A DNA stretch of 64,000 bases from positions 71,663,118 through 71,727,117 of the forward strand of contig CP092881.1 in the NCBI GenBank assembly GCA_030710605.1, given 5' to 3'. Position 1 is the stretch's first letter. The number at the start of each line of letters is the position of its first letter. Shown one piece after another: positions 4,560 to 58,050 of this stretch. The translations under genes were made by a program, and so were the position numbers. Source of the DNA: Cordylochernes scorpioides (Eukaryota > Arthropoda > Arachnida > Pseudoscorpiones > Chernetidae). Under the pieces are notes generated by a model. The model was not told the origin of the DNA, did not search any database, and worked only from the letters and a program-made list of their open reading frames with translations.

Positions 4560-4720
4560 TTCGAAAAATCACATCAAAGAACGCACTTGCAACCTCCGAA
4601 CAATTTTTAACGCCTTGCCAAATGCTTTATTTTTATTTACTTCTCCTGACGAAGAAAAAATATTTTTGTCGAAACGTTGAGAAAATAAAAAAAACTCCAA
4701 CTGGCCGAAGTGTCTATTTT
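4560..4720 (+). repeat. P-tail family copy with hammerhead-like motif
   Basis: Contains the family order: TTGCAAC, AATTTTTAACGCCTTGCC, AAATGCTTTATTTTTATTTA, TTCTCCTGACGAAG, TTTTTGTCGAAACGTTGAG, and the trailer GGCCGAAGTGTCTATTTTT. The hammerhead-like core is 4641-4683: TTCTC (stem I), CTGACGA, extra A, partly decayed stem II ending TTTTTGTC, GAAACGTT, GAGAA (stem I). Confidence 0.6.
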
Positions 4721-4744
4721 TTATATAAATAATTATCTAATACG

Positions 4745-4962
4745 TCTAGTTATGAAAATTCTAAACTATTATAGACGCGTATGATTATTTTTAAAATGTA
4801 AACAATTTCTACTGTCCTTACTGCAATGTAAAATTCAATAGAAGAGTACACCACTAAGTCCCATTAAGTTTTCCATTGCAGCAAGGGCAGTAGAAATTGT
4901 TTAATTTTCAAAAGAATCTTACGCGTCTATAATAGTTTCGAATTTTCATAACAGATGGCGCA
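4745..4962. repeat. Palindromic foldback element
   Basis: Arms of about 85-95 bp face each other around 4850-4870: TTATGAAAATTCTAAACTAT to CTTACTGCAATG on the left, and CATTGCAGCAAGGGCAGTAG to GTTTCGAATTTTCATAA on the right. The inner arm shares ACTGTCCTTACTGC with the G-family repeats. Confidence 0.65.
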
Positions 4963-5390
4963 CTAATACATCACATCTAGTTATATATAATATTGTGTCA
5001 TAGCCAATCACAATGATTTATTTAATGGTTATATAGGAAAAAAGTTCAAATCTTCCTCTTTTCAGGGAAGATAATAATCACCAAGGATTTGCCAACTTTA
5101 AAAAGTTCTTTAGCGAATAAGTCCATTTTTTTGGTAGTGGCGGTCATAACCAAAAAGGGACCTCTCCATTCAAATATGCATCATGACAATGCATTATTAT
5201 CTTAACACTCAAGTAAAATTAATAAAAGGTATTGATAAGGAATGAACTATAACACTCCATTTTTGGCAAATAAAGACGAAAGCCGAACTGTGTACCCTGG
5301 TTTCGGATAATGGTCCTTATCTTTAATGGTGAGGCTTCAATTACTTAACATCCAACGGTAGGATTTATGAAATAGGTTCAATTTGCCACA
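4963..5390. other. No gene seen
   Basis: AT-rich sequence with no coding signal. It lies between two repeat copies. Confidence 0.4.
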
Positions 5391-5394
5391 AAAG

Positions 5395-5730
5395 AGTTTA
5401 TGCTGATTATGTGGTATGGCCGGTTTGTTACACATGAATATATAAGCAATAACGCGCCATCTATATATAGCAAATTAAAACATTTATACTCCAATGTTTC
5501 TTTCACCTATCATTCAAACTTCAGTGTAGAATATATAGGCAGAATGATCCAATACAGTATTAGATCTCTAAATAAGCGGCCTGGTAGATTAAAAATTGGC
5601 AAAACTGCTTTGAGGGCTAACCACTGATTAGCCAAGTCCTCCCAATATTCTTTTATCGCAGTAAGGACAGTATAAGTTTGATATAGGTATGAAAGAGACA
5701 TTAAAGTTTGAATGTTTCCATTTTCTACAC
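5395..5730. repeat. G-family repeat, degenerate inverted copy
   Basis: AGCAATAACGCGCCATCTAT, AATGTTTCTTTCA and CCAATACAGTATTAG at 5436-5562 match the start and middle of the G unit. From 5600 on, CACTGATTAGCCAAGTCCTC and the AGTAAGGACAGTA segment run in the opposite orientation. It is therefore a decayed head-to-head copy of the family at 34035-34635. Confidence 0.6.
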
Positions 5731-6150
5731 ATGGCTATAGTTTTGTTATAAAACCTAAATAAAGATGTGATTATGTGAGGAAGGCAAATCCCACTAGTGT
5801 CGAAGGACCGAGTCAACTGAACCTCTTAGTTGCATAAATTTACTCTCAATGCCAAAACACAAAATATTACATATCTCTTTGTAGTACCTCTTGTAGCTTC
5901 TGTTAAGTGAATTTAAAGATTTCTGAAGCAGATTATTTACGCCTTCCACTTCACGATTCTCTCACAGCAGATTTGCATAATGGTATTTGCATAATATTAG
6001 GAATTAAATGAATTTATAAAGTTTTATTGAAAAACGTTTATTGTGCGTGTTTGCTTTTTGAGAAGTGTTATAGATTCGAGTTATAAAAAGTGCTAACCCC
6101 AATGGCTAACCTCTCTGATCTTCAGAAACTACTATCTCGCCATGATACTA
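5731..6150. other. No gene seen
   Basis: Unique-looking AT-rich sequence without coding or RNA motifs that I recognise. Confidence 0.35.
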
Positions 6151-6159
6151 TACAGGTCT

Positions 6160-6372
6160 AGTAGCGAAGACTAAAGCGCGGCTGATTCCACACTCGCCTT
6201 TTCAGTGATACGCTAACCTATGTACGATGGATTCTGTGGCCAATGGACATGCGTCGGACTTGGAGGCTGTTGGGTTCTGCGATGCCTGGAGTATAGAAGC
6301 TCCATCTATGCTTCCTTCCTGCAGTAAACCTGTATAATACCGGTCGTCTTAATAAAGCTGTATGTATATGTG
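6160..6372 (+). repeat. LTR-like repeat copy with polyadenylation signal
   Basis: Shares a long ordered set of segments with 38868-39095: GCGGCTGATTCCACACT, GGACATGCGTCGGAC, GAAGCTCCATCTATG and TCTTAATAAAGCTGT. The AATAAA near the end and the absence of coding sequence fit a solo LTR or another non-coding retroposon. Ends are not certain. Confidence 0.5.
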
Positions 6373-7350
6373 TGTAGTAGTGAATATTCCTAGAGAAATT
6401 GAAGACGAGAGAGGTAAACACTATTATTTACACTTTCCTATTTTACATTAATCCAACATTTTGTTATTTAATTGATAATATCGCTCTGTTTTAAAGTAGG
6501 AATAATGTTTTTCCTAATGTAAAATATCTATTGGTAATATAAAATGTGGGAATACGTGTGACGCGATGTTCAGAATTCTACAATACTCTATTCAGAAAAA
6601 AAAGACAATTTGTACGAAATTTACTTTTTTTTTAATAAAACTAAAAATATTTATACATATAATTATTTTTACTTATAATTTTATTGAAAATCTTAACAAA
6701 GAATTACTTTCTAAAGTTCCGAATATTTGTGAAGAATGACCCAGTACAATATCAAAGCAGTGTAATGGTTATTTGAAGTTTATATGTTAATTTTGTAAAT
6801 ATTCTCATTTTTTAATTCATAGTAACATTTTTCTCTGGCAGACATATTCAATTTTTTATCATCAGCATTTTTTATTATTATTGTTTTTTTCCTTTGTTAG
6901 TTATCAAATCATTTGTAATTTTAGTTTCTTTTTTGTTTTGTTGTGTTCCTTTTTAAGCAATAAAATATATAGAACTAAGGTGTAATATTCAATTCAAGCA
7001 TATGGAACCAACATCGATTCATTTTTAAAACAAGGTAAAATCATAAGCTTATACAACTTTCACTTTTTCATACAATGGTAAAAAGTGAGGAAGCCGCTTG
7101 GAGAGTCCACCACTGTTCCTTCCAATATTTTTCATTGCAATGAGGACCATCGTTAGTTGATTTATTTGAATAATAATAGAAATACAATTGCGCTAAATGA
7201 CTTCTCATTTGGAGTATTCCATACTCAATGATTTGTTGGATCTATTTAGACAACGGAGTGGCGAGGGTAGAAGCTACGAACAACCCGTCCCCGATGTCGT
7301 GTTCGGCTGGCAATTAATACAAGAGATGAGTCACTCTCTGATAATGTTTA
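6373..7350. other. No gene seen except a G-family scrap
   Basis: AT-rich. Around 7080-7165 a fragment (GAAGCCGCTTGGAGAG, TTCCAATATTTTTCATTGCA) is a degraded G-family piece. The remainder shows no supported feature. Confidence 0.4.
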
Positions 7351-9732: not shown

Positions 9733-9998
9733 AAGACCAGTTGGTCTCGAGAACCACGCCATCAACATCTCCTCAGCGGCGAAGCACGCGACCTACGTAT
9801 TCTTCGTAGATCGCGAAATACGTGGTGTCGCTGGAAACCCGCTGGTGATTCTCCACCAAACTCTGCAGCGCTGGCAGAGGCGCCATATTCATTGTACATA
9901 GTGTATATAATGCATATTATATATTTTTAAATGTTACAGACTGTGCACTTTGCATGTATTGACAAGATGTCAATAAAATTATTTTAATTGTCAATTGT
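9733..9998 (+). repeat. SINE-like repeat (S family), copy 1
   Basis: Starts GTTGGTCTCGAGAACCACGC, includes a hairpin around the ACCTACGTATTCTTCGTAGATC segment, then GTGTCGCTGGAAACCCGCTGG, TCTGCAGCGCTGGCAGAGGC, and ends TGTCAATAAAATTATTTTAA. Other copies: 15909-16150, 33872-34035 continued at 34636-34780, and reverse at 40884-41143. I see no clear pol III A/B boxes, so SINE is a working label. Confidence 0.7.
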
Positions 9999-15893: not shown

Positions 15894-15908
15894 CCTGTAT
15901 CTTTCAAG

Positions 15909-16150
15909 TTGGTCTCGAGGACCACGCCATCACCATCTCCTAAGCGGCAAAGTACGCGATCTACGTATTCATCGTAGATCGCAAAATGCGTGGTGTCGCT
16001 GGAGACCCACTGGCGATTCTCCACAAACTCTGCAGCGCTGGAAGAGGCGCCATATTCATTGTACATAGTGTATATAATGCATATTATCTTTTTTTAATAG
16101 TGCAGACTGTGCATGTATTGATAAGATGTCAACAAAATTATTTTAATTAT
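15909..16150 (+). repeat. SINE-like repeat (S family), copy 2, inserted in LINE
   Basis: Starts GTTGGTCTCGAGGACCACGC and ends GTCAACAAAATTATTTTAAT. It splits the LINE frame between the RT palm and the thumb. The hairpin CGCGATCTACG / CGTAGATCGC is nearly perfect here. Confidence 0.75.
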
Positions 16151-25985: not shown

Positions 25986-27481
25986 TGTTTTGCAGTCGTG
26001 GGAGTAATAAAATAGTTTTGATCAGAGATTTCTTTATTTGAGCTAAGGAATATATTTTGTCGCGTGTGTACCCTACCGGTTCTTTGCGACAATGCCGCTT
26101 CCTCCTTCGTGGATCACCTACTTAGGCTCCCGTTGCTCTTGCCTGCAGCTTTTCCCCGCAGGCCACCCAAAGACGTTCTGAGTTCCACCTCTCCAGTGGA
26201 AACTCCCTTCCTCTGGCAGTATCTCTCGGCCTTACCACTGGTGGGGGAACACGAGAGACCTACCAGAAGAGTAGCAGCAGCAGCCTGGCGATGATGGCAA
26301 TGGCGAGAGTAACGACAGGAGGCGGCATGGAGACTTGAAGCACTTTTTTATTGTCATCTATTACTAAACATTACATATAACTTGAATAATAAACAACGGG
26401 TATTTACATCATTTTATATCCTGGGGCCAACACAAAAGCGTATTTACAGTTAACCTCCCCAGGAAACGAGACCACAGCAGTCGGCGACTCCCACATCAGC
26501 CAGCAAGGGAATCAGGCGAAAGCGCCATCTATTGGTGGAGGTTGTAATCGTTTGGAGGCCTTACACATAACACCGCCTCCCCATCAAGGCGGATCGTCCC
26601 GATCCGGCCTCATCGCTTCCGTCGCCCAGACGTCACGCTTCTTGCTGGTGCCGCTTCTCTTGCCGGAACTGTCCATCTCGCTGGAATCGCCTTTCTCGCC
26701 GGAGCCAATCTTTCTCGCTGGAGCCGCCCCTCTCGCCGGAGTCGCCCTTTCGCCAGAGCCGTTCTTCTCGCCGGGATCGCTTCTCCCGCCGGAGCCGCCC
26801 CTTTCTCCGGAGCCGTCCCTCTCGCCGGTGCCGCCCCTTTCGCCGGTACCGCTTCTCACGCCGGAACCGCCTCTCACGCCGGAGGCACCTCTCATGCTGA
26901 CTCAGCCTATTATGACGATTCCGCTTCTTATATCGGTACCGTTTTTCGTGCCGGAGGCGCTTCTCATGCCGGCACCGCCTCTTATGCTGGTACCACTTCT
27001 CTCGCCGAGACCACCTCTCTCGCCAGGACCTCTCCTCTCGCCGGGACCATTCCTCTCGCCGGGACCGCTTCTCTCGCCGGTACCGCTTCTCTCGCCCGTA
27101 CCGCTTCTCTCGTCGGTACTGCTTCTCTCGCCGGGACCATTCCTCTCGCCGGCACCACTCCTCTCGCCCGTACCGCTTCTCTCGCCGGGACCACTCCTCT
27201 CGCCTGTACCACTTCTCTCGCGCGTACCGCTTCTCTCGCCGGTACCGCTTCTCTCGCCGGTACCGCTTCTCTCGCCGGGATCACTCCTTTCGCCGGGACC
27301 ATTCCTCTCGCCGGGACCGTTTCTCCCGAGGACACCTTTTCTCCCAGCGTATTTACAGTTAACCTCCCCAGGAAACGGGACCACAGCAGTCGGCGACTCT
27401 CACATCAGCCAGCAAAGGAATCAGGCGAAAGCGCCATCTATTGGCGGGGGTTGTAATCGTTTGGAGGCCTTACACGTAACA
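25986..27481 (-). mobile_element. LTR A element with internal minisatellite, ATAT target duplication
   Basis: The outer ends form TG...CA: TGTTTTGCAGTCGTGGGAG at the left and CCTTACACGTAACA at the right, flanked by ATAT on both sides (25982-25985 and 27482-27485). On the minus strand the terminus reads AGCTCAAATAAAG ... CCACGACTGCAAAACA, similar to LTR B. Inside, 136-bp direct repeats (26437-26572 and 27346-27481) enclose an 18-bp minisatellite. A complete LTR of 587 bp would be 25986-26572, with only 136 bp of a second LTR kept. No gag or pol remains. Confidence 0.6.
26573..27345. repeat. 18-bp minisatellite, GC-rich
   Basis: About 40 imperfect 18-bp units of the type CTCTCGCCGGGACCATTC, most regular at 27000-27335. 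Because 18 is a multiple of 3, several frames stay open. The plus frame 26552-27487 encodes a six-residue repeat (LLSPVP, LLSPGP). The minus frames encode GERSGT and PAREAV repeats. I regard these frames as by-products of the repeat, not as genes. Confidence 0.85.
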
Positions 27482-29400: not shown

Positions 29401-29821
29401 CCGATTTTTCCCTAAATTTAAATTTTCGACGTAATCAAACTTTCGTTCTCTTTCGTCGATTGTTTCTCTTGAAAAAATAATACATTTTGAAAGGTGAAAA
29501 ATCTACAACGAATTATTATCATTTTATCTCCTCATCTAAGAACTTGTCAATTCTAATTTTTTCCCTAGAAGTATGAGAGTTCGTGCTTTTTCAGACATCC
29601 ATAATGTTAGTATATGCTCTATTAATATCTCTAGCGACAGCTGTCGCCATAAAGAGAAGAGCTGGGCGACAGGTGATAAAGTCAGGTCTCCAATTACCGC
29701 CATGTGACACCGAGGAGAGAGAAAAGAGTTAAGAAGAACTTTCCTATCGTGACCGGAAGTGCCCTGTCCCATTACCTCGGAAGGCTTCCTGCCAATTTGT
29801 GTCATCGTCCTAATCACGTAT

Positions 29822-30195
29822 TGGCCGTAATTGGAGAGGTCTCTCCCCAATCTCAGCCACGCTTTCTGCCAACATTTTGTTATTTCATCCCAACTCATAT
29901 ATAGTGGGTGAAGGATGATGGATTTTATGGAAAGGAACGAGTAAATCTCTGGGTAACACACAGACAAATGGTTTCTCTCATCGTATTCACATTTCTTTTT
30001 AATTTTTAAAAGATATTGGAGTAATTGGAGCGGTCTCTCTCCAATCTCGACGTCAGCCTTTCTGCCAACATTTTGTCATTTCATCCGAACAGAGATATAT
30101 AGTGGGTGAAGGATGGTGGATTTTATGGAAAGAGACGAATAAATCTCTGGGTAACACACAGACAAATGGTTGTTCTCATCGTATTCTGATTTTTT
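29822..30195. repeat. Tandem duplication of about 190 bp
   Basis: GTAATTGGAG..GGTCTCTC, TCTGCCAACATTTTGT, TATATAGTGGGTGAAGGATG and AATCTCTGGGTAACACACAG occur in this order twice (29828-29985 and 30021-30180). The 143-codon minus frame at 29536-29967 overlaps the first copy and has no recognised domain. Confidence 0.75.
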
Positions 30196-30975
30196 TTTAA
30201 AGGTATGAAGGAATGAATCTTCATCCTGATAGCACCTATTTGACCAATTTCATTAAACCGATTTGGAAGATATAAATTTTAAACTTCGCTTTTTGAATTG
30301 TCTTCATCATCAGAGGTATTTCAAAAAGGAAAAAAAAACATATTTTGAAAGGTTTGCTGGTTCAGAAATGTATTTTGATGATTTCTTGGTATATATGGAG
30401 CTAGTTTATAAGAACATGGTAACCACTTAGAATTAAATTCTGAAAAGGTAAGGAAGGTAAAATTGGCGTGTGTATAATTGGCTGGAAGTAGTGATTCTAG
30501 GTGTCATTTTGAAGGGCATATTGGCTCTAAATCTCGAGAAATAAGGAGTGGTTAAAAGAGACATTGCCCTCGATTGCTTATTGATTTAGTTAAATGAAAG
30601 AATAAGTACCCAAATGTGTAACAGCTAATGTACAGATCCAATATGTCTCACAAAGATTGTATCAAACAAACCCCAGATCAATAGCGCCCAATAGAATCGA
30701 AGCGATAGATAAACAGAGGGTGATCCAGGGAAGTACCTGGAAGATTGTTGTCGACGTTGTAAAAAATGACAAACAGAGAGCCAATAAACACTGCGCGGTA
30801 TTGAGCGGAGTCTGCAGTTGACAGTGAGGAATGGAGCGGCTTAGTCAGCCCTGTCTGGTCATTGCCAGCTAGCTACTCTTACGCGACTCTATGCTATACC
30901 ATCATATTGAAAATATCAAATAAAATATAAAAAGCTATATTTATATATTTCGGTAAATAATATGTATAAGATAGC
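30196..30975. other. No gene seen
   Basis: AT-rich. GGGTGATCCAGGGAAG at 30718-30735 resembles a mariner-type terminus but has no partner nearby. Confidence 0.35.
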
Positions 30976-33871: not shown

Positions 33872-34780
33872 GTGACCACGCCATCACCATATCCACAGCG
33901 GTGAAGCATGCCATCTACGTTTTTTTTTTCTTGCGAAATACGTGGTATCGCTGGAAACCCGTTGGCTATCTTCCATCAAACTCTGCAGCTGCGGCAGAGG
34001 CGCCATGTACATATTCATTTTACATATTGTATATATAAAATAAAAGGACTTAAAAGCGCGAATGTTTCTTTTATACATAAAACGAACTTCTACTGTCCTT
34101 ACTGCGATGAAAAATATATTGGGAGGGCTTGGCTCATCAGTGGTGAACCCTCCCAGCGGTTTCGCCAATTTAATCCACCAGACCGCTTCTCAGAGCTCTA
34201 ATACTGTATTGGATCGTTCTGCTTTTATATGCTACACTGAAGGATGGAATCTTAGAAATGGTTTTCAAGTATACTATGGACATAGGCTTATAGGACAGTA
34301 GAATTACAATCAAATATTTGCTTCAAGCAATGCTCTTCAGCAAACTATAAAGACAAGACCAGTTAGGAATAAATTAACACAAAGCAATAACGCGCCATCT
34401 ATACATATAAAATAAAAGGACTTAAAAGCGCGAATGTTTCTTTTATACATAAAACGAACTTCTACTGTCCTTACTGCGATGAAAAAATATATTGGGAGGG
34501 CTTGGCTCATCAGTGGTGAACCCTCCCAGCGGTTTCGCCAATTTAATCCACCAGACCGCTTCTCAGAGCTCTAATACTGTATTGGATCATTCTGCTTTTA
34601 TATGCTACACTGAAGGATGGAATCTTAGAAATATATTGTATATATATTTTGATTATAATCATCATCATCATTGTAAATTACTCATTACAACTTCTTAAAT
34701 AGTGCGGACTGTACACCTTTACCCCCTGTATTGACAAGATGTCGATATACCTATATTAATTGTCAATTATCTCTCTCTCA
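33872..34780 (+). repeat. SINE-like repeat (S family), copy 3, split by G-family insertion
   Basis: The first half is 33872-34034 (GACCACGCCATCACCATAT to TATTGTATATATA). The second half is 34636-34780 (ATTGTATATATATTTTGATT to AATTGTCAATTATCT). Between them lies a G-family tandem. ATTGTATATATA occurs on both sides, so the insertion probably duplicated or targeted this AT-rich site. Confidence 0.7.
34035..34635 (+). mobile_element. G-family tandem insertion (1.6 units, period 372 bp)
   Basis: The unit starting ATAAAATAAAAGGACTTAAA at 34035 starts again at 34407. Each contains CTTCTACTGTCCTTACTGCG, TATTGGGAGGGCTTGGCTC, ATCAGTGGTGAACCCTCCC, AGCGGTTTCGCCAATTTAAT and GACCGCTTCTCAGAGCTC. The two parts are almost identical. 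No protein is encoded. A partial tandem inserted as one event suggests a circular or concatemeric intermediate. Confidence 0.75.
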
Positions 34781-40880: not shown

Positions 40881-40883
40881 CAA

Positions 40884-41143
40884 TACCTTTATCGACATCT
40901 TGTCAATACAAGGTCAAGTGAAACACCCGCATAAATCAGGAAATTAATAATGATGATTATCATATTACAAAAATTTAAAATATCGATATGCAGTCAATAT
41001 GTACATGGCCCCGCTGCAGAGTTGATGGAAGATAGCCAGCGGGTCTTCACTGACACCATGCATTTCAATATCTACAAAGAAAACGTAGATCTCGTGTTTC
41101 GCCACTGAAGAGATATTGATAGCATGGTCCTCGAGCCCCACAG
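40884..41143 (-). repeat. SINE-like repeat (S family), reverse copy 4
   Basis: Reverse orientation: ATCGACATCTTGTCAATACA at the left (tail), CGCTGCAGAGTTGATGGAAG, CAGCGGGTCTTCACTGACAC, AACGTAGATCTCGTG and TGGTCCTCGAGCCC at the right (head). Its head abuts the U6-derived array. Confidence 0.65.
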
Positions 41144-41823
41144 CGAAAATCTAGGTAGAGAGAAAAAGAACGCATCACAATTTTGCGTGTCATCCTTGCG
41201 AAGGGGCCATGCTAATATTCTCTGTATCGTTCCTATTGTAGTATATGTACCGCCGAACAAGCGTCAACAATCTAAAATAAAATACTTCACAATTTTGCGT
41301 GTCATCGTAGCACAGGGGCCATGCTAATATTCTCTGTGTATCGTTCCTATTGTAGTATATGTACCGCCGAACAAGTGTGTACAATCTAAAATAAAACACT
41401 TCATGATTTTGCGTGTCATCCTTGCGCAGGGGCCATGCTAATCTTCTCTGTATCGTTCCTATTGTAGTATATGTACCGCCGAACAAGTGTGTACAATCTA
41501 AAATAAAACACTTCACGATTTTGCGTGTCATCCTTGCGCAGGGACCATGCTAATATTTTCTGTATCGTTCCTAATGTAGTATATGTACCGCCGAACAAGC
41601 GTGTACAATCTACAATAGATCGCTTCACGATTTTGCGTGTCATCCTTGCGCAGGGACCATGCTAATATTTTCTGTATCGTTCCTATTGTAGTATATGTAC
41701 CGCCGAACAAGCGTGTACAATCTACAATAGAACGCTTCACGATTTTACGTGTCATCCTTGCGCAGGGGCCATGCTAATCTTCTCTGTATTGTGTCTATTG
41801 TAGTATATGTACCGTCGAACAAG
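41144..41823 (-). repeat. U6 snRNA-derived tandem array, block A (6 units)
   Basis: Units end at 41261, 41375, 41487, 41599, 41711 and 41823. The last four are exactly 112 bp. On the minus strand each reads TTGTTCGGCGGTACATATAC, GGAACGATACAGAGAAGATT, AGCATGGCCCCTGCGCAAGG and ATGACACGCAAAATCGTGAA in order, i.e. U6 from its 5' stem-loop to the 3' domain. The U6 terminal T run is replaced by TATTGTAGATTGTAC, and no U6 promoter lies between units. These are not normal U6 genes but a U6-based satellite. Confidence 0.9.
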
Positions 41824-42039
41824 CCAAAAGAATATCCTTTGGATTCCAGTGACTCGGCGATAATTCGTCAATAATTGGACCCGGTGTTCCATCTATCAGT
41901 GGCCGTGAGACATAAAGAACTTGATGCTAAGAAGACAGTGTCGATAAGAAGTCTCCAGAAGTCCAGTGGTAAGTTGTACATAAGTGCTATGTTGGAGATT
42001 GAAGAGAACAGCGCTTGTCACCACGTCACAGGATATAGA
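41824..42039. repeat. BEL-related 215-bp segment interrupting the U6 array
   Basis: Starts CCAAAAGAATATCC, then GGATTCCAGTGACTCGGCGA, GGACCCGGTGTTCCATC, GAACTTGATGCTAAGAAGAC and CGCTTGTCACCACGTCACAG. It is a second copy of 44873-45062, where it is joined to BEL/Pao-type pol remnants. This copy has an extra stretch around 41955-41985. Confidence 0.75.
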
Positions 42040-43477
42040 ACGTTTCACGATTTTGAGTGTCATCCTTGCACACAGGGGCCATGCTCATATTTTCTGTATC
42101 GTTCCTATTGTAGTATATGTACCGCCGAACAAGTGTGTACAATCTACAATAGATCGCTTCACGATTTTATGTTTCATTCTTGCACAGGGGCCATGCTAAT
42201 ATTTTCTGTATCGTTCCTATTGTAGTATATGTACCGCCGAACAAGTGTGTACAATCTACAATAGATCGCTTCACGATTTTATGTGTCATTCTTGCACAGG
42301 GGCCATGCTAATATTTTCTGTATCGTTCCTATTGTAGTATATGTACCGCCGAACAAGTGTGTACAATCTACAATAGATCGCTTCACGATTTTATGTGTCA
42401 TTCTTGCACAGGGGCCATGCTAATATTTTCTGTATCGTTCCTATTGTAGTATATGTACCGCCGAACAAGCGTGTACAATCTACAATAGATCGCTTCACGA
42501 TTTTATGTGTCATTCTTGCACAGGGGCCATGCTAATATTTTCTGTATCGTTCCTATTGTAGTATATGTACCGCCGAACAAGCGTCTACAATCTAAAATAG
42601 AAACCTTCACGATTTTGAGTGTCATCATTGCGCAGGGGCCATGCTAATCTTCTCTGTATCGTTCCATATTTAGTATATGTACCGCCGAACAAGTGTGTAC
42701 AATCTACAATAGATCGCTTCACGATTTTATGTGTCATTCTTGCACAGGGGCCATGCTAATATTTTCTGTATCGTTCCTATTGTAGTATATGTACCGCCGA
42801 ACAAGCGTCTACAATCTAAAATAGAAACCTTCACGATTTTGAGTGTCATCCTTGCGCAGGGGCCATGCTAATCTTCTCTGTATCGTTCCTATTGTAGTAT
42901 ATGTACCGCCGAACAAGTGTGTACAATCTACAATAGAACACTTCACGATTTTACGTGTCATCCTTGCGCAGGTGCCATGCTAATCTTCTCTGTATCGTTC
43001 CAAATTTAGTATATGTACCGCCGAACAAGTGTGTACAATCTACAATAGATCGCTTCACGATTTTATGTGTCATTCTTGCACAGGGGTCATGCTAATATTT
43101 TCTGTATCGTTCCTATTGTAGTATATGTACCGCCGAACAAGTGTGTACAATCTACAATAGATCGCTTTACGATTTTATGTGTCATTCTTGCACAGGGGCC
43201 ATGCTAATATTTTCTGTATCGTTCCTATTGTAGTATATGTACCGCCGAACAAGCGTGTACAATCTACAATAGAACGCTTCACGATTTTGCGTGTCATCCT
43301 TGCGCAGGGGCCATGCTAATCTTCTCTGTATCGTTCCTATTGTAGTATATGTACCGCCGAACAAATGTGTACAATCTACAATAGAACGATTCATGATTTT
43401 GCGTGTCATTTTTGCGCAGGTGCTATGCTTATCTTCTCTGTATCGTTCCTATTGTAGTATATATACCGCCGAACAAG
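42040..43477 (-). repeat. U6 snRNA-derived tandem array, block B (13 units)
   Basis: One partial unit to 42133, then twelve units of exactly 112 bp from 42134 to 43477. Two subtypes alternate. One keeps the U6 ACAGAGA box and GCGCAAGGATG; the other reads ACAGAAA and GTGCAAGAATG on the minus strand. Regular spacing with few indels indicates recent amplification or homogenisation. The array ends at GAACAAG followed by unrelated DNA. Confidence 0.92.
43254..43365 (-). pseudogene. Best-preserved U6-like unit
   Basis: This unit keeps ATACAGAGAAGATTAGCATG (ACAGAGA box and AGC triad), GGCCCCTGCGCAAGGATGAC (internal stem-loop) and CACGCAAAATCGTGAAGCG. The 5' stem-loop is altered (TTGTTCGGCGG) and the 3' end reads TTCTATTGTAGATTG instead of a T run. 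Without an upstream PSE/TATA promoter or a terminator, expression as a U6 snRNA is unlikely. Confidence 0.8.
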
Positions 43478-43980
43478 AGAGAGAATGGGGGGAAGGGCAG
43501 GAACACAAGAACCCGGGCAATTAACGGTAGATTTGAGGAAAGAATAGCCCGATCCATTTTGGGAGAATAATTGGAGGATTGAGTGATGTATCTATAACAG
43601 GCGGAGTGGGCAAACTATCTTTTTATTAAAATATATTGTAGCAATGGATCTTTACGGGAATTTCCCACAGAATCATGTGACGACAATGAGAAATACTTTC
43701 TTAGTTTCAATAATATCTCTCTTTGTTGTTTATAATTTTAGATATTTCACTGAAATAGAAATTTTGAAACAAAAAACAATGAATAATTCTGAAACTATTC
43801 TAATATTTTAATTGGAATAAATATTAGTGTTGAAAAAATAATTCAGAAATTCATTATTTCAAACTATTTTTTCTCGCACACAAAAAAATGAAAGATTATA
43901 AATACTAAATTTTATCTATTATATGTCAAACACTATGTATCAATTTAATATCCAATAATATATATTAAAATATCTACCAA
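43478..43980. other. No gene seen
   Basis: A short GA-rich stretch directly after the array (GAGAGAATGGGGGGAAGGG), then AT-rich DNA. Confidence 0.4.
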
Positions 43981-44580: not shown

Positions 44581-45070
44581 CATTACAACCTGGTTTCCCT
44601 TTATGAAATATTCATTCTTTGGGCAATGAAACAGATATTGGAATCATGCTGCTTTCCACAGAAAATGTCACTAGCAATTTCATCAATGTGGAAACCTGCT
44701 ACTATAGACTCCTTGCTTCTCTTCGAAGCTTTCTTTCGTTATTATTCCTCAGAGTGGGGTTCAATCTGCGTGGCTTCAAACCAGATTGTGCCCATTATTG
44801 GTGAATATCATCAAGCTGTTTAACCAAGATACAATATCACCCTCTCTAAGCTTTGAACATTTTGCCAAGGGGGCCAAAAGAATATCCGTTGGATTCCAGT
44901 GACTCGGCGATAATTCATCAATAATTGAACCCGGTGTTCCATCAATTAGTGGCCGTGGGACACAAAGAACTTGATGCTAAGAAGACAGTGTCGAGGAGAA
45001 GTCTCCAGTAAGTTGTATGTTGGAGATTGAAGAGAGCAGCGCTTGTCACCACGTCACAGGAAGGCTAATC
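44581..45070 (-). pseudogene. BEL/Pao pol, upstream fragment
   Basis: The minus strand encodes CVPRPLIDGTPGSIIDELSP, SHWNPTDILLAPLAKCSKLR in one open run before stops. Position upstream of the integrase C-terminus suggests the end of the integrase core, but the match is weak. The segment 44873-45062 is duplicated inside the U6 array. Confidence 0.45.
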
Positions 45071-53000: not shown

Positions 53001-56000
53001 TTAGCTTGTCTCAGCCCTTGTTCTGGAAGGAAATATATCACGGCCTGTGTTCCCTAGCAGAATGGAATGTTGTTCTTCAGGGTCCAGGTAGGGCTTCATC
53101 CGAATGACATGAACGATATCCTTGGATTTCCGTGATCGGGGAGACGGGTCCACGGGCTCTACTTCATACGTAACTTCTGAAAGCTTCTTGGTCACCTTGT
53201 AGGGACCGAAGTATCTCTTCAGTAGCTTTTCTGAGAGCCCTACTTTTCGGATGGGAGTAAAAACCCACACAAGATCATCCTTCTGGTAATAGACTGGAGT
53301 ATGTTTCTGGTCGTAAAGTCTACGGTCTTTCGCCTGTGATTGTAGAAGGCGTGATCGGGAGAGTTGACGCGCTTCCTCAGCTCTGGTCACAAGTTCCCCA
53401 ACGTAGTCGTCAGAGATCTCATCTGGTAGGTAGGGTAGTACGGCATCGATGTAGGTCTCGGCCTCGCGGGCGTGGACAAGAAAGAACGGAGTGTAGCCGG
53501 TCGCCTCCTGTTTAGCAGTGTTGTAAGCAGAAGTCACGTAGGGTAAAACTTGGTCCCAGTCCTTCTGCTCGACACCTGTGTACATGGACAACATGTCTCC
53601 CAGAGTTTTGTTGAACCTTTCAGTCAGGCCGTTGGTCTGGGGATGGTAGGCCGTTGTAAATCTGTGCACAATTCCGCACAGAGCATTGATCTCTTTTATT
53701 ACTTGAGAAATGAAATTTCTTCCGCGATCTGTTATCATTTCTCTAGGAGCTCCATGCTTCAAGATAACATCTTCAACCAGGAACTTAGCTGTTTCGATTG
53801 CTCCTCCGTCTGGGATCGCTTTCGTTATGGCTTACCTTGTCATATAATCGGTGCACACAATGATCCAACGGTTTCCATCTTTAGAAACTGGAAATCTTCC
53901 AAGGAGATCGACCCCGACCTTATAGAATGGCTTTTCTACGGGCGGTATGGATACAAGTTGTCCAGCCGGACGTCGAGGTAATTTCTTCCTTCGTTGACAC
54001 TCCCGACAATGGCTTACATATTGGCGAACAGTTCTATAAAGGCCAGGCCAATAGAATCGTTTCTTGACTTTGTCATACGTTCGGGCGAAACCCAAATGCC
54101 CAGCTGTAGGAGCGTCATGTAAATCTGCCATAACTTCCTATCTTAAGTGCTTAGGGATCATCATAAGCCAGGGCTTTCCAGTTGTGCTATAGTTTTTCTT
54201 GTATAAGATGCCGTCGATAATGCTGGATTCCTTTCTGGTGTAGCCCGAGTTTAAATTATCGATTATTTTAGCTAAATCCGCGTCTTTAGTCTGCTCTATA
54301 TCGACGTTGGTTAGTGACATCACAGCACTTGGTGGATCGTTCTCAAGCGGGCTCCTTGACAGACAATCGGCATCCTTATGTTTGCGTCCGCTCTTGTAGA
54401 TAACGGTCTCGTCAAATTCTTGCAACTTCAGCGCCCATCTTGCCAAACGGCCAGAAGGATCTTTCTGCCCTACCAACCAACATAGAGAATGATGGTCAGT
54501 GACAACCGTGAATGGTCGACCAAACAAATATGGGCGGAATTTGCTAATAGACCAGACTACAGCAAGGCATTCTTTTTCCGTTGTAGAATAGTTATTTTCA
54601 GCCTTTTTCAAGATTCTAGATGCATAAGCTATAGGCCGCTCCTTTCCACCTTGTATTTGTAGAAGAACAGCTCCAATACCATGTCCGCTTGCATCCGTGT
54701 GTAGATGGGTATCAGCGGATTCATCAAAGTGTCCTTAGACAGGCTCTGAAATTAGAGCTGTTTTAAGGACATCAAACGCTTTCTCTTGAGCTGCATCCCA
54801 ATAAAATTGTTTTTCAGTCTTCAGTAGGTCATGCAAAGATCTAGCTTTGTCGGCAAAGTTCTCAATAAATCTTCGGTAATAGGAACATAATCCAAGAAAG
54901 CTCTTCAGTTCAGAGATATTCCTTGGCCTCGGAAATTTAGAGACGGCTTCAACTTTATCTGGATCTGGATGAATTCCATTGGCGTCAACAAGGTGTCCCA
55001 AAATCTTTATCCTCCTTGATCCAAAAAGACACTTTTTGTGGTTCAAGCTTAGTCCAGCTTTCTGGATGCAGCTTAATACAAGTTGTAGACGACGTAGATG
55101 TTCTTCAAAGGTAGGTGCGTAAACTACGATGTCGTCCAGGTAGCAAAGGCACATGTTCCATTTAAGACTGCCCAGAACACTATCTATCATCCTTTCAAAC
55201 GTTGCTGGAGCATTGCAAAGACCGAAAGGCATTACTTGGAATTCATACAGCCCATCTGGAGTGATGAAAGCAGTTTTCTCCCTGTCTTTTTCGTCCACTT
55301 CAATCTGCCAATACCCGGACCGAAGATCCATCGTGGAGAAGTAACTAGAGCCGGCTAAACTGTCCAAGGCATCGTCAATGCGTGGCAGCGGGTAAACATC
55401 TTTTTTTGTTATCTTATTTAATCGACGGTAATCTACGCAGAATCTCCAGGTCCCGTCTTTCTTTCGAACTAGAATAACTAGAGATGACCAAGGACTTTCA
55501 GAGGGCTTCACGATGTGATTTTCAATCATCTTGTTCACTTCATATTGAATTAGTCGTCGTTCACTTGGTGCTACTCTATAGGGCCGCTGTTTGATAGGAG
55601 ACTGGTCGCCTGTGTTTATCTTGTGCTTCACAGTACTGGTGGGCTTAATAGGAGTACTCCCAAAGTCAAATATGTCAATAAACTCGTCAGGGCATGAAAC
55701 AAGCTGTAACCTTTGAATTTCAGACAGCCCTGGATCTAGAGTAAGGTTTATCTTCTGTGACCATTCACGTGACTTTAGCTGCGTTTCTTGTAACTTATCG
55801 CTGGATTCAATAAGACTGCAGATATTCCCATTCTCATAACTTTCCATGGTGCACATATTCATTCCTGATGGAATCAGTTGCGGCCAAGACGCTCCATTCG
55901 CCACCCAAATGCTACCTCGGCCGTGTCGAAATGTAACCAATGAGTTTGGTATAAGAACTTCCTTTCTTAATAATAAGTCCTTAGAAGTTGAGACTAAAAC

Positions 56001-56508
56001 ATCTCTAACACCGCATACTTCTTCGTTTATCACACTGATCTTCTTTATTGATTTAGGCGGGATGACAAAGTCGTCGGAAGCAAACAATCTCTGGTTTTCC
56101 TCCTCTCGAGATTCCAGGACGGAGGTTTCCTCGAGATGGAGTTCATTTCTGCCACAATCAATGACGGCTTCGGTGGCCTTGAAGAAGTCCCATCCGAATA
56201 TGATGTCATGGCTGCATTCCACCATAACAACGAATTCAAATGAGATATTCAGACCATTAACTTCTATGTTCAGTACACATTTTCCTAGGGTCTCTATTGA
56301 ATTTTTATTTGCGGCTTTAAGAATGGGACCTGGTTCTTTGAAGAGAGGTGTCTTTAGTTCGCGTCGAAATTTGTCTGAAATAACAGAAAAGTCGGCTCCT
56401 GAATCCACCAATGCTTTAATTTTGCGTCCATTTATTTCGACCATAACAAAATTTTCTTTTAATTTAGCGGCGATATGCCCTGGAGGATTTTCCTCAATGG
56501 CGACCTCA
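53001..56508 (-). pseudogene. pol: Gypsy pol: protease, RT, RNase H, integrase; three in-frame stops
   Basis: One reading frame throughout. Protease: ALVDSGADFSVIS (DSGA). RT: SSLVILVRKKDGTWRFCVDY, STMDLRSGYWQIEV (motif A), VMPFGLCNAPATFER (motif B) and CYLDDIVVYAPTF (YLDD). RNase [32 protein letters not shown] and [13 protein letters not shown]. Integrase: HHCC finger (HLGFARTYDKVKKRFYWPG, CRECQRRK), D in DLLGRFPVSKDG, D in MITDRGRNF, and E in TNGLTERFNKTLGDML. No chromodomain is seen. Stops lie at 54735-54737 (start of RNase H), 54138-54140 (before integrase) and 53832-53834 (in the integrase core). Apart from these it looks intact. Confidence 0.93.
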
Positions 56509-56529
56509 CCCCGTTAGAAGCCGCTCCAC

Positions 56530-57684
56530 TTAGTTTTTCACATTCTGAGGCATGAGAGAACGGCTGAAACGACGGGCTGGCGACTGGGATTGTCTTCGGG
56601 CTGGCGACCTTGCGCGGCTTGGATGTGGGGAAGAGCTCCGGTAGAAGTACGTCGAGGTTTGGGGCGTTACATAGTCGTCGTCGGCGTCATATCTCGGGGG
56701 TCGACTCGAAAATCCAACATTTCTTCCTTCTCCGCCATTCCTTGACCTGGCTTCAGCGAAGACCTGCCGTCGTTCCCTACAATAACGGACGACATGTCCG
56801 GGTCGTCCGCAGTGGAAGCAGATAGGTTTATCGTCGTAGGTTCTCCAATGTTCCGTCTTCCTGGGTTGGGTTGGTCGGTCGATATTATAATAGGGCGTTC
56901 GTGGTTGTTGTTGTACCACGTTGACTTGTGGTCTGGTAGGTTGTAGAGCACGGCTGACCTCTTCCCTCACAGTCTGTTCCAGGGCGTTCACCTCTCGGAG
57001 AGGATTGACCACTTCAGGTGCTGAGAAAACCTTTTGTATCTCTTCTCTAACGATGCGGCGAATTAAGCCGGCCAAGTCGTCTGAGTCGTCAACACACGAA
57101 ATGGGCATTACGTTTGACAACCTGGCGAATTTCGTACGGCCGATCCTGCGCTGCTTGACGGTTGTCAGATGACGACAAAACTTCAGGATCTCATCTACTG
57201 TCTGTATGTCTTTCGCCACCAATACCTGGTATGTGTCTTCCGAAATTCCCTTTATAATATGAGCAACTATCTCACCTTCTTCCATGCGAGGGTTCACCTG
57301 GTGGCAGAGACTAAGAATCTCCTGGATGTATGACTCGCTGGATTCCTCGGCCTTCTGTGCTCTTGACTTCAGAACTTTCTCGGCGCGTCGAGCAGAATCC
57401 TCCTGCAGTCCGAACACACCGCGGAATGCGTCTTCAAAGCTTCTCCACGAGTTGAGTGATTCTTCGTTATTATCAAACCACCTTCCAGCAGTTCCGTTCA
57501 AGTAAAATACGACGTTGGCAAGCTTCATGGTCTCGTCCCATCTGTTGTACTTCGACACTCTCTCGTACTCTTTCAACCATTGTACAGGGTTTATATTTCC
57601 ATCTCCCGAAAAGGTAGAAGGATCTCGTTGGCGCTGACAAGGGAGGTAGGATCCGCTAACAGTAGGTCTGTGGTCGTCTTCCAT
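56530..57684 (-). CDS. gag: Gypsy Gag with zinc knuckle
   Basis: The open frame extends to 57813, but that part lies partly in the LTR. The ATG at 57684 (MEDDHRPTVSGSYL) gives a 384-residue Gag. The capsid-like part has NPVQWLKEYERVSKYNRW, TAGRWFDNNEE and WRSFEDAFRGVFG. A zinc knuckle CFHCGRPGHVVRYC (C-x2-C-x4-H-x4-C) follows, then an Arg/Ser-rich tail (RARSPARRQSQSPARR). The stop at 56530 falls before pol opens in another frame at about 56508, so a normal overlap for frameshifting is absent or has been lost. Confidence 0.88.
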   Translation of the reverse strand: MEDDHRPTVSGSYLPCQRQRDPSTFSGDGNINPVQWLKEYERVSKYNRWDETMKLANVVFYLNGTAGRWFDNNEESLNSWRSFEDAFRGVFGLQEDSARRAEKVLKSRAQKAEESSESYIQEILSLCHQVNPRMEEGEIVAHIIKGISEDTYQVLVAKDIQTVDEILKFCRHLTTVKQRRIGRTKFARLSNVMPISCVDDSDDLAGLIRRIVREEIQKVFSAPEVVNPLREVNALEQTVREEVSRALQPTRPQVNVVQQQPRTPYYNIDRPTQPRKTEHWRTYDDKPICFHCGRPGHVVRYCRERRQVFAEARSRNGGEGRNVGFSSRPPRYDADDDYVTPQTSTYFYRSSSPHPSRARSPARRQSQSPARRFSRSLMPQNVKN

Positions 57685-57784
57685 TTCTATTCGTTGTGGC
57701 AAAGGTTGAAGAATTGGTTCACGTCCCTGTAGACGTCGACTTCTTCGAAGTTCCGTCACGCTACCCAGCGTCTCCACCAAAATA

Positions 57785-58050
57785 TGTCGCAGAGATAAAT
57801 AAAGCAAGGGCAAGTTTGGGGATAATTAATTTATTATAAGGAGTATATGGAGTATATAAGGAGTATAGGGAGCGAGAGTTTTGTACAACTTACCCCCAGT
57901 TAAGGTTAATCCTGAATGAACGGCGTTAGCCACCGTCCCGTTTTCCTTATTTACAGATCAGCCTCCCAGCAGCCCCCACACCGGTGGTCCCCCCCCCCCG
58001 GGGTCCAGGGATGATTGACAGTTGTCCCATCTGGATGGAGCTACTTGACA
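57785..58050 (-). repeat. 5' LTR of gypsy element (266 bp)
   Basis: Plus strand TGTCGCAGAGATAAATAAAG to GAGCTACTTGACA. Compared with the 3' LTR: G/A near the start, A/T in GTATATGG, a TA insertion, A/C in GAGCGAG and a longer C run. Confidence 0.9.

Follow-up and report, generated by a model that had tools for sequence, protein, structure and literature searches.

We identified a satellite-like array of 19 head-to-tail repeats derived from U6, the spliceosomal small nuclear RNA (snRNA), in a 64-kb stretch of the genome of the pseudoscorpion Cordylochernes scorpioides (hereafter, the window; C19:71663118-71727117). With a probability of about 0.7, this is an array of U6 retrocopies formed by retroposition, tandem duplication of a unit comprising U6 and the target-site duplication, and local spread. 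The window array is one of at least 29 loci in this genome (2.62 Gb, 24 contigs) that contain two or more head-to-tail U6 units. In 11 of the 29 loci, which represent nine independent events, the linker between the units equals the sequence flanking the array. All the evidence comes from one assembly; loci are denoted by contig and position in Mb.

U6-derived units in the window

A preliminary description of this stretch had reported about 19 head-to-tail U6 units on the minus strand, sixteen of them exactly 112 bp long, and had named a covariance-model search as the test that could refute their identity. In that search, exactly 19 matches in the window exceeded the Rfam gathering threshold, all to RF00026 (U6) and all on the minus strand (41159-43480), so that all 19 units score as U6. 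Each match covers model positions 1-105, with scores of 72.5-96.7 bits against a cut-off of 44 (E-values from 9.3e-24 to 2.1e-16). Relaxing the threshold to E<=0.1 across the whole window added three sub-threshold matches to other families and left the U6 count at 19. Units were delimited by cutting at the conserved CTTG (U6 nt 8). Sixteen of the 19 are indeed 112 bp long, one (u18) is 114 bp long, and in the other two the 3' end joins other DNA, namely the spacer (u13) or the array edge (u19, which terminates with GCGTTCTTTTT). The pairwise identity of the sixteen 112-bp units is 84-100% (mean 91.7%).

The array had been described as a 112-bp satellite at 41144..43477. The array stands, but it is interrupted: Tandem Repeats Finder (TRF) delineates two period-112 blocks (41175-41824 and 42035-43477) with a non-U6 spacer between them (Table 1). 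The spacer is a fragment of a sequence that is also present at 44875-45061, 2.8 kb away, with 85% identity, and the likeness stops at both spacer edges. The U6-derived repeats are head-to-tail, as befits a satellite, but 19 units are few for one.

As a native reference, we used four U6 copies clustered on C20 (L004-L007) that are identical over 110 nt (GTACTCGCTTGTTCGGCGG...GCGTTCCATATTTTT) and end with T5. By eye, TATATAAG (TATAAAAG in L007) was found ~30 bp before the gene, together with a common block further upstream, a putative proximal sequence element (PSE); judging by these features, we take L004-L007 to be real U6 genes. This native cluster (C20:27.70-27.73 Mb) has the 5' end GTACTCG and many other full-length copies have GTACACG, which points to a second source gene. 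Compared with the native gene, the window unit consists of U6 nt 1-101 (of 110) and the 11-bp linker TATTGTAGATT (101 + 11 = 112), after which the next U6 copy begins with GTACAC. Thus, the unit does contain most of U6, with the extent now defined as the first base to nt 101. A linker variant, TATTTTAGATT, was found in 5 of the 17 window linkers (u6, u8, and u16-u18).

U6 genes have an external promoter, so U6-derived units carry none. PSE/TATA-type promoter elements were not seen by eye between the window units, where there is only the 11-bp linker and nothing like the native upstream region would fit. The unit list and the alignment contain no T5 between units. The earlier statements that promoters and T-runs are missing between the units therefore hold, the latter with the proviso that the array has a T5 at its outer 3' edge. 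An intact ACAGAGA is present in 9 of the 19 units (10 lack it), and an intact canonical core GAACG..CGCAAA in only 2. Over the 94-nt body of the 19 units, the 34 functional sites are as variable as the other 60 (1.12 versus 1.17 minor copies per site; permutation P = 0.50). Hence a functional multi-copy U6 locus, or a structured non-coding RNA array under selection, is hardly credible, even though 19 of 19 units score as U6. The window array is a set of U6-derived repeats, not U6 genes, in agreement with the previous conclusion that these are not ordinary tandem U6 genes. We propose no function for the array; no signature of selection as U6 was seen in its units.

An assembly artefact appears unlikely, judging from the sequences, because the units are not identical and because a similar structure recurs at 28 further loci, most with other linkers; together with the window, these 29 loci are spread over 12 of the 24 contigs.

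Table 1. Features of the window and target-linked U6 arrays elsewhere in the genome (a dot denotes no strand)
Feature	Position	Strand	Basis or description
Block 1, 13 head-to-tail U6-derived units	42034..43477	-	Rfam; TRF, 12.9 copies of period 112; unit list
u1	43366-43477	-	u1-u12 exactly 112 bp
u13	~42034-42133	-	Linker lost at spacer
Block 2, six U6-derived units	41159..41823	-	Rfam; TRF, 5.8 copies of period 112; unit list
u14	41712-41823	-	u14-u17 112 bp; u18 114 bp
u19	~41159-41261	-	
Inter-unit linker, first of 17	43373..43383	-	TATTGTAGATT in sense; unit alignment
Non-U6 spacer between blocks, ~209 bp	41825..42033	.	BLAST within window; alignment
Candidate target-site duplication, left copy, outer 3' array edge	41157..41164	.	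AGAGAGAA on +, TTCTCTCT in U6 sense
Candidate target-site duplication, right copy, adjoining U6 nt 8 of u1 on its 5' side	43478..43485	.	
Dispersed repeat near 3' edge of array	40882..41141	+	Similar stretches at 9740-9983, 15908-16037, 33874-34015
Target-linked array	C2:178.81		Linker CTCACCAACGT; period 112
Target-linked array	C22:35.76		Linker TATGCCCTCC + GCTT; period 114-115
Target-linked array	C6:97.16		Period 121
Target-linked array	C2:67.43		Period 114
Target-linked array	C20:14.97		Period 117; 15 bp exact at each side
Target-linked array	C19:38.74		Period 124
Target-linked array	C10:11.42		Period 112; target-linked on 3' side only
Target-linked array	C15:21.04		12 units, 107-109 bp; (TC)n
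Target-linked arrays, three loci	C4		(TC)n TTTT; flanks homologous to one another

Linkers and flanking sequences of U6 arrays across the genome

The whole-genome search suggested earlier was run as two DNA searches of the same genome, the queries being two-unit fragments, one from the window and one from L010. The best 40 of 1933 and the best 40 of 1156 matches were scored; these two sets may overlap, and the array counts are lower bounds. The 29 loci, which were read at least in part (C10:14.35 only at the ends, and C10:11.42 and C12:77.01 not to the 5' edge), are located on contigs 1, 2, 3, 4, 5, 6, 10, 12, 15, 19, 20, and 22. Their size ranges from ~0.2 to ~15 kb, the longest one found being C10:14.35 (~15.1 kb), and the periods from 107 to 125 bp. 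Beyond what had been described, the window array is one of many, and many of the other linkers are target-site duplications.

We denoted as target-linked those arrays in which the linker matches the flank. The linker-flank comparison took in 22 of the 29 loci (all except two C4 duplicates, C10:14.35, C12:77.01, and three loci of the C19 family). For the seven independent target-linked arrays outside (TC)n runs, the longest exact matches between linker and 5' flank measure 8-24 bp (6 of 6 testable arrays), and those between linker and 3' flank 9-15 bp (7 of 7). As a control, 472 linker-flank pairings between different arrays were drawn from 17 arrays, with five (TC)n-type arrays and same-linker pairs left out. 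The matches in these pairings did not exceed 7 bp, with four exceptions: the C22:36.53 linker against the C22:35.76 flanks (12 and 8 bp) and two others (8 and 9 bp) that look like chance. We also set a prediction beforehand, namely that a linker is either a target copy or an end-to-end tail, and then fetched 12 further loci. Four of these were target-linked (C2:67.43, C20:14.97, C19:38.74, and C10:11.42), two had end-to-end junctions (C5:105.99 and C10:57.64), and one was a near-duplicate of C12:76.95; the remaining five are discussed below.

The structure of these arrays suggests an origin in which LINE (long interspersed element)-type machinery would reverse-transcribe and insert U6 RNA, duplicating ~8-15 bp of the target on either side. 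The two target copies would then permit tandem duplication of U6 together with the target duplication, via slippage or unequal exchange. The expected product is a unit of U6 nt 1-101 and a linker; nine independent arrays at other sites of this genome show such duplication directly.

The target-linked arrays, and the mixture of U6 variants within a single array (C2:178.81 and C22:35.76), would be explained as well by repeated independent insertion of U6 at one target, each insertion adding a target copy. Such double insertion has been proposed for P elements, where tandems have junctions of target-duplication size and several insertions into a single site are put forward as a hypothesis (PMC9659126). 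We consider this scenario improbable for U6. Extra 5'-junction bases that are absent from the far flank are present in every unit of C22:35.76 (GCTT, 7 of 7), C6:97.16 (TGTAGCTA, 8 of 8), and C19:38.74 (TTTTCGCTTGTA, 2 of 2). Independent insertions should not produce such identical bases, which indicates that one insertion was duplicated. The C4 array is an ambiguous case: TTTT is common to all five units and the far flank has TT.

Alternatively, the arrays could be template-jump concatemers: having reached the U6 5' end, the enzyme would switch to a second U6 RNA at its 3' end (or copy ligated U6 RNAs), and the whole array would be inserted at once. PMC13174262 and PMC2104539 describe U6/LINE-1 chimeras and template switching. 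End-to-end junctions, in which the U-tail passes straight into the next 5' end, were detected in 4 of the 29 loci: C1:170.09 (three units), C12:5.29 (two), C5:105.99, and C10:57.64 (one junction). In C1:170.09 and C12:5.29, truncation (at GCGTTC, within a (TC)n site) is confined to the outermost 3' unit; C1:170.09, C12:5.29, and C5:105.99 lie in TC-rich sites. C12:76.95 and C12:77.01 are probably of the end-to-end type as well. A U6 dimer from the dragonfly Ladona fulva also counts in favor of template jumping: protein record P0121 is an antisense reading of a head-to-tail U6 dimer with a period of 111 nt. For the window array, however, this route is rather unlikely: the linker TATTGTAGATT differs from the native U6 3' end CATATTTTT, 4694-6428 of 10000 shuffled linkers match the plain end-to-end model no worse than the real linker does, and the units stop at nt 101, like those of most target-linked arrays.

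We also evaluated, and dropped after comparing the native U6 genes and the linkers of other arrays, a snap-back origin of the window linker, whereby the cDNA would fold on its own 3' end, copy part of the U6 5' region, and re-prime. The consensus 22-nt tail is almost a perfect reverse complement of the unit's native positions 19-40 (19 matches, three one-base gaps), a match equalled by 3 of 20000 shuffled sequences but by none of 20000 Markov sequences or 19142 window segments. With the unit's own 5' region as the reference, the fit of the major linker is equalled by 46 of 10000 shuffled linkers and that of the minor linker by 809, and most junctions fold as hairpins. Part of the tail match, however, is natural U6 pairing, the linker is not unusual when compared with the canonical 5' region (991-2467 of 10000), and the linkers of other arrays are plainly target sequence. 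We therefore regard the snap-back origin as very improbable.

Several observations made in the survey concern U6 copies in general. Single native-like U6 copies abound, and some of these (L025, L030, and L040) have direct repeats of 8-11 bp. A (TC)n run lies within 30 bp upstream of 7 of 60 U6 matches, versus 329 of 19943 random points; the U6 copies next to (TC)n runs are L010, L015, L029, L037, L048, L022, and L033. At C20:72.89, a U6 copy has a 66-bp internal tandem expansion (L011:4597-5104, seven U6 matches ~66 bp apart) and adjoins an Rfam U4 match barely over the threshold (L002:1998-2072; 47.5 versus 46 bits); similar 66-bp units are present in C22:36.53, C10:57.64, and the last unit of C6:97.16. 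Outside this genome, the predicted proteins P0125, P0126, P0128, and P0244 are antisense readings of head-to-tail U6 with a period of 123 nt. Given the 111-nt dimer and these records, short-period head-to-tail U6 is not confined to the pseudoscorpion genome. A 36-mer from the U6 core had no matches in viral contigs and, among genome contigs, matched one pond metagenome bin.

Age, exchange, and local spread of the 112-bp family

At the compared sites, the units of the C1, C12:5.29, C4, and C15 arrays are 99.5-99.7% identical to the native gene, those of the window array 92.0%, and those of the other old arrays 90-94%. This gradient indicates that the process is recent and repeated. Once an array exists, unit-to-unit homology would drive exchange within it. 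Among the 19 window units, all four combinations were observed at 44 of 136 informative site pairs (after removal of a 2-base duplication from u13 and u18 for alignment), so the units have recombined. In 9 of 11 old arrays, the within-array identity is higher than the identity to every other old array.

At nine of the 29 loci, eight on C19 and one on C22, the linker recurs in another array but, in those tested, does not match the flanks of the array itself. The linker TATTGTAGATT was found at eight loci, which all lie in the 66.2-71.7 Mb interval of C19: the window, 71.57, 71.04, 69.43, 68.78, 68.31, 67.46, and 66.25. If the sites were random, the chance that all eight fall on one of the 24 contigs would be ~2e-11, calculated from the best candidates and not from a full census. 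Such clustering favors a local process. The flanks of six of these eight arrays were compared, and BLAST gave no match among them at 1e-5. By analogy with the target-linked arrays, the window linker would be a fossil target duplication of the founder of this family.

The least certain step of the proposed origin is the spread of the 112-bp family to eight or more sites on one chromosome, with unrelated flanks where compared. The route that we favor would be ectopic gene conversion, by which several units were transferred into U6 retrocopies already resident at these sites. We favor it because two arrays end in a native-type U6 3' end that is absent from the internal units: in the arrays at 71.57 and 66.25 Mb, the end of the final unit reads CCATAT and CAATATTT. 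Ectopic conversion also agrees with the distribution of the family on a single chromosome.

The main rival for this step only is retroposition of a whole array: a multi-unit U6 transcript would be reverse-transcribed and inserted with a new target duplication. At C19:69.43, the entire array of 18 units with the window's linker sits inside a 14-bp flanking repeat, and C22:36.53, which shares the linker of C22:35.76, has its own 12-bp flanking repeat; the mixed array C10:57.64 is likewise flanked by an 8-bp repeat (11 bp counting the U6 end). In a null drawn from 36 loci, two random 40-mers shared an 8-mer at any position in 1232 of 34319 pairs, and 11-, 12-, and 14-mers in 50, 31, and 10 of ~34,300 pairs, respectively. 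Because shared 8-mers are common between random flanks, the longer flanking repeats are the stronger evidence and the 8-bp repeat at the edges of the window array is weak. Confinement of the eight loci to one contig speaks for a local process, and the two arrays with native-type ends (71.57 and 66.25 Mb) hint that resident copies were converted; on these grounds, spread by whole-array retroposition is unlikely, although it is a weightier rival than any of those considered for the formation of the arrays. A side observation at C19:69.43 (L064) is that ~160 bp of other sequence lies between the last two units, part of it resembling, by eye, a tRNA-derived SINE (short interspersed element).

Several findings weigh against an origin by retroposition, tandem duplication, and conversion. 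The flanking repeat of the window array, TTCTCTCT, is matched under the position constraint by just 92 of 200000 random pairs, but it is only 8 bp long, TC-rich, and of low complexity. At none of the five loci tested among the eight of the 112-bp family do the flanks equal the linker (longest match, 6 bp), and because no founder locus was found, tandem duplication of U6 with its target copy rests on analogy for this family. Five of the 12 later loci did not follow the prediction (C3:165.42, C6:64.82, C22:36.53, and two shared-linker loci of the C19 family), and three of the 29 loci (C3:165.42, C6:64.82, and C10:14.35) cannot be assigned clearly to any class. At C19:68.78 and C19:66.25, the within-array identity does not exceed that to every other old array. 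The window units are no closer to one another (0.913) than to the native gene (0.920), so homogenisation is only partial. A two-base variant, CTAAAATTGG -> CTACAATAGG, recurs in arrays with unrelated linkers (C2, C22, C6, C3, C10, and C19) and is not in the youngest arrays; independent insertion and duplication do not predict such recurrence, which needs either inter-locus conversion or a variant source gene. Finally, ectopic conversion is proposed from array ends at two loci.

The surroundings of the window array include other repeats. The C4 U6 arrays have, on their other side, a relative (71-73%) of the dispersed repeat near its 3' edge. In the window, TTTTTCTCTCTACCTAG and an open frame in the 3' flank of the array resembled an acceptor site, and we considered an exon with a 3' splice site there; this reading was rejected because the supposed exon is the dispersed repeat, with three other similar stretches in the window. 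Ty3/gypsy-like open frames occupy positions 53001-57825 (minus strand), with a gag that matches a C. scorpioides record at 96% identity across 88% of the gag length, and a Pfam search of eight window frames gave a single match, RVT_1. The window also contains an 18/36/54-bp minisatellite (26650-27325) within a 364-codon open frame of proline-rich repeats, and a 198-bp tandem repeat with 1.9 copies (29819-30200).

U6 arrays among known retroposon-derived repeats

The first steps of satellite origin are usually erased and hence hard to study. Here, arrays from 2 units to ~15 kb, of different ages, are present in one genome, and because the source is among the most conserved RNAs known, mutations, truncations, and linkers are readable. 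The mechanisms of birth (target-repeat duplication, repeated insertion, template jumping, and ectopic conversion) could be compared by their junctions, with single U6 insertions as natural controls. Tentatively, U6 RNA may act in this lineage as a satellite-seeding retroposon, inserted copies repeatedly becoming arrays by way of their target duplications and finished arrays then "infecting" nearby resident U6 copies by ectopic conversion and so spreading one linker along a chromosome. On that reading, a single genome would contain all stages of satellite birth, datable against a slowly evolving RNA.

Satellites are reportedly born from transposable elements through target-site duplications, a route attributed to McGurk and Barbash. 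As in the target-linked arrays described here, the units of such satellites are separated by the target duplication (P-element double insertion and models of non-homologous end joining or non-allelic homologous recombination; PMC9659126). Here, in contrast, the source is a spliceosomal RNA, the 5' junctions point to one insertion that was duplicated, and many independent cases of differing age coexist in one genome. RNA polymerase III (pol III) transcripts serve as satellite sources in 5S-derived satellites. A pol III RNA or its retroposon is likewise the source of tRNA/SINE-derived satellites (Hy/Pol III and Xenopus satellite 1), according to the same source (PMC9659126). Unlike tRNA-, SINE-, and 5S-derived satellites, the U6 units lack a promoter and comprise several unrelated linkers and periods instead of one family.

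U6 retropseudogenes and U6/LINE-1 chimeras are likewise full or near-full U6 copies with target duplications; in the available sections of PMC4476161 and PMC13174262, such copies are single or fused to LINE-1 and no head-to-tail arrays are mentioned, whereas the copies described here form arrays. The tripartite element of Magnaporthe, a LINE template-jump chimera, involves RNA-to-RNA jumps (PMC2104539), which are also a likely reading of the end-to-end U6 junctions, but in the U6 arrays the same RNA is repeated. Tandem repeats of U snRNAs in grasshoppers also place snRNAs in tandem, but are treated as multigene families in PMC7754599; the window units differ from these in the lack of a promoter or terminator. 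No U6-derived satellite was named in the titles or abstract openings among the matches listed from the open-licence literature. Retroposon-derived satellites are known, and within the open-licence literature searched, U6 as their source is a new variant.

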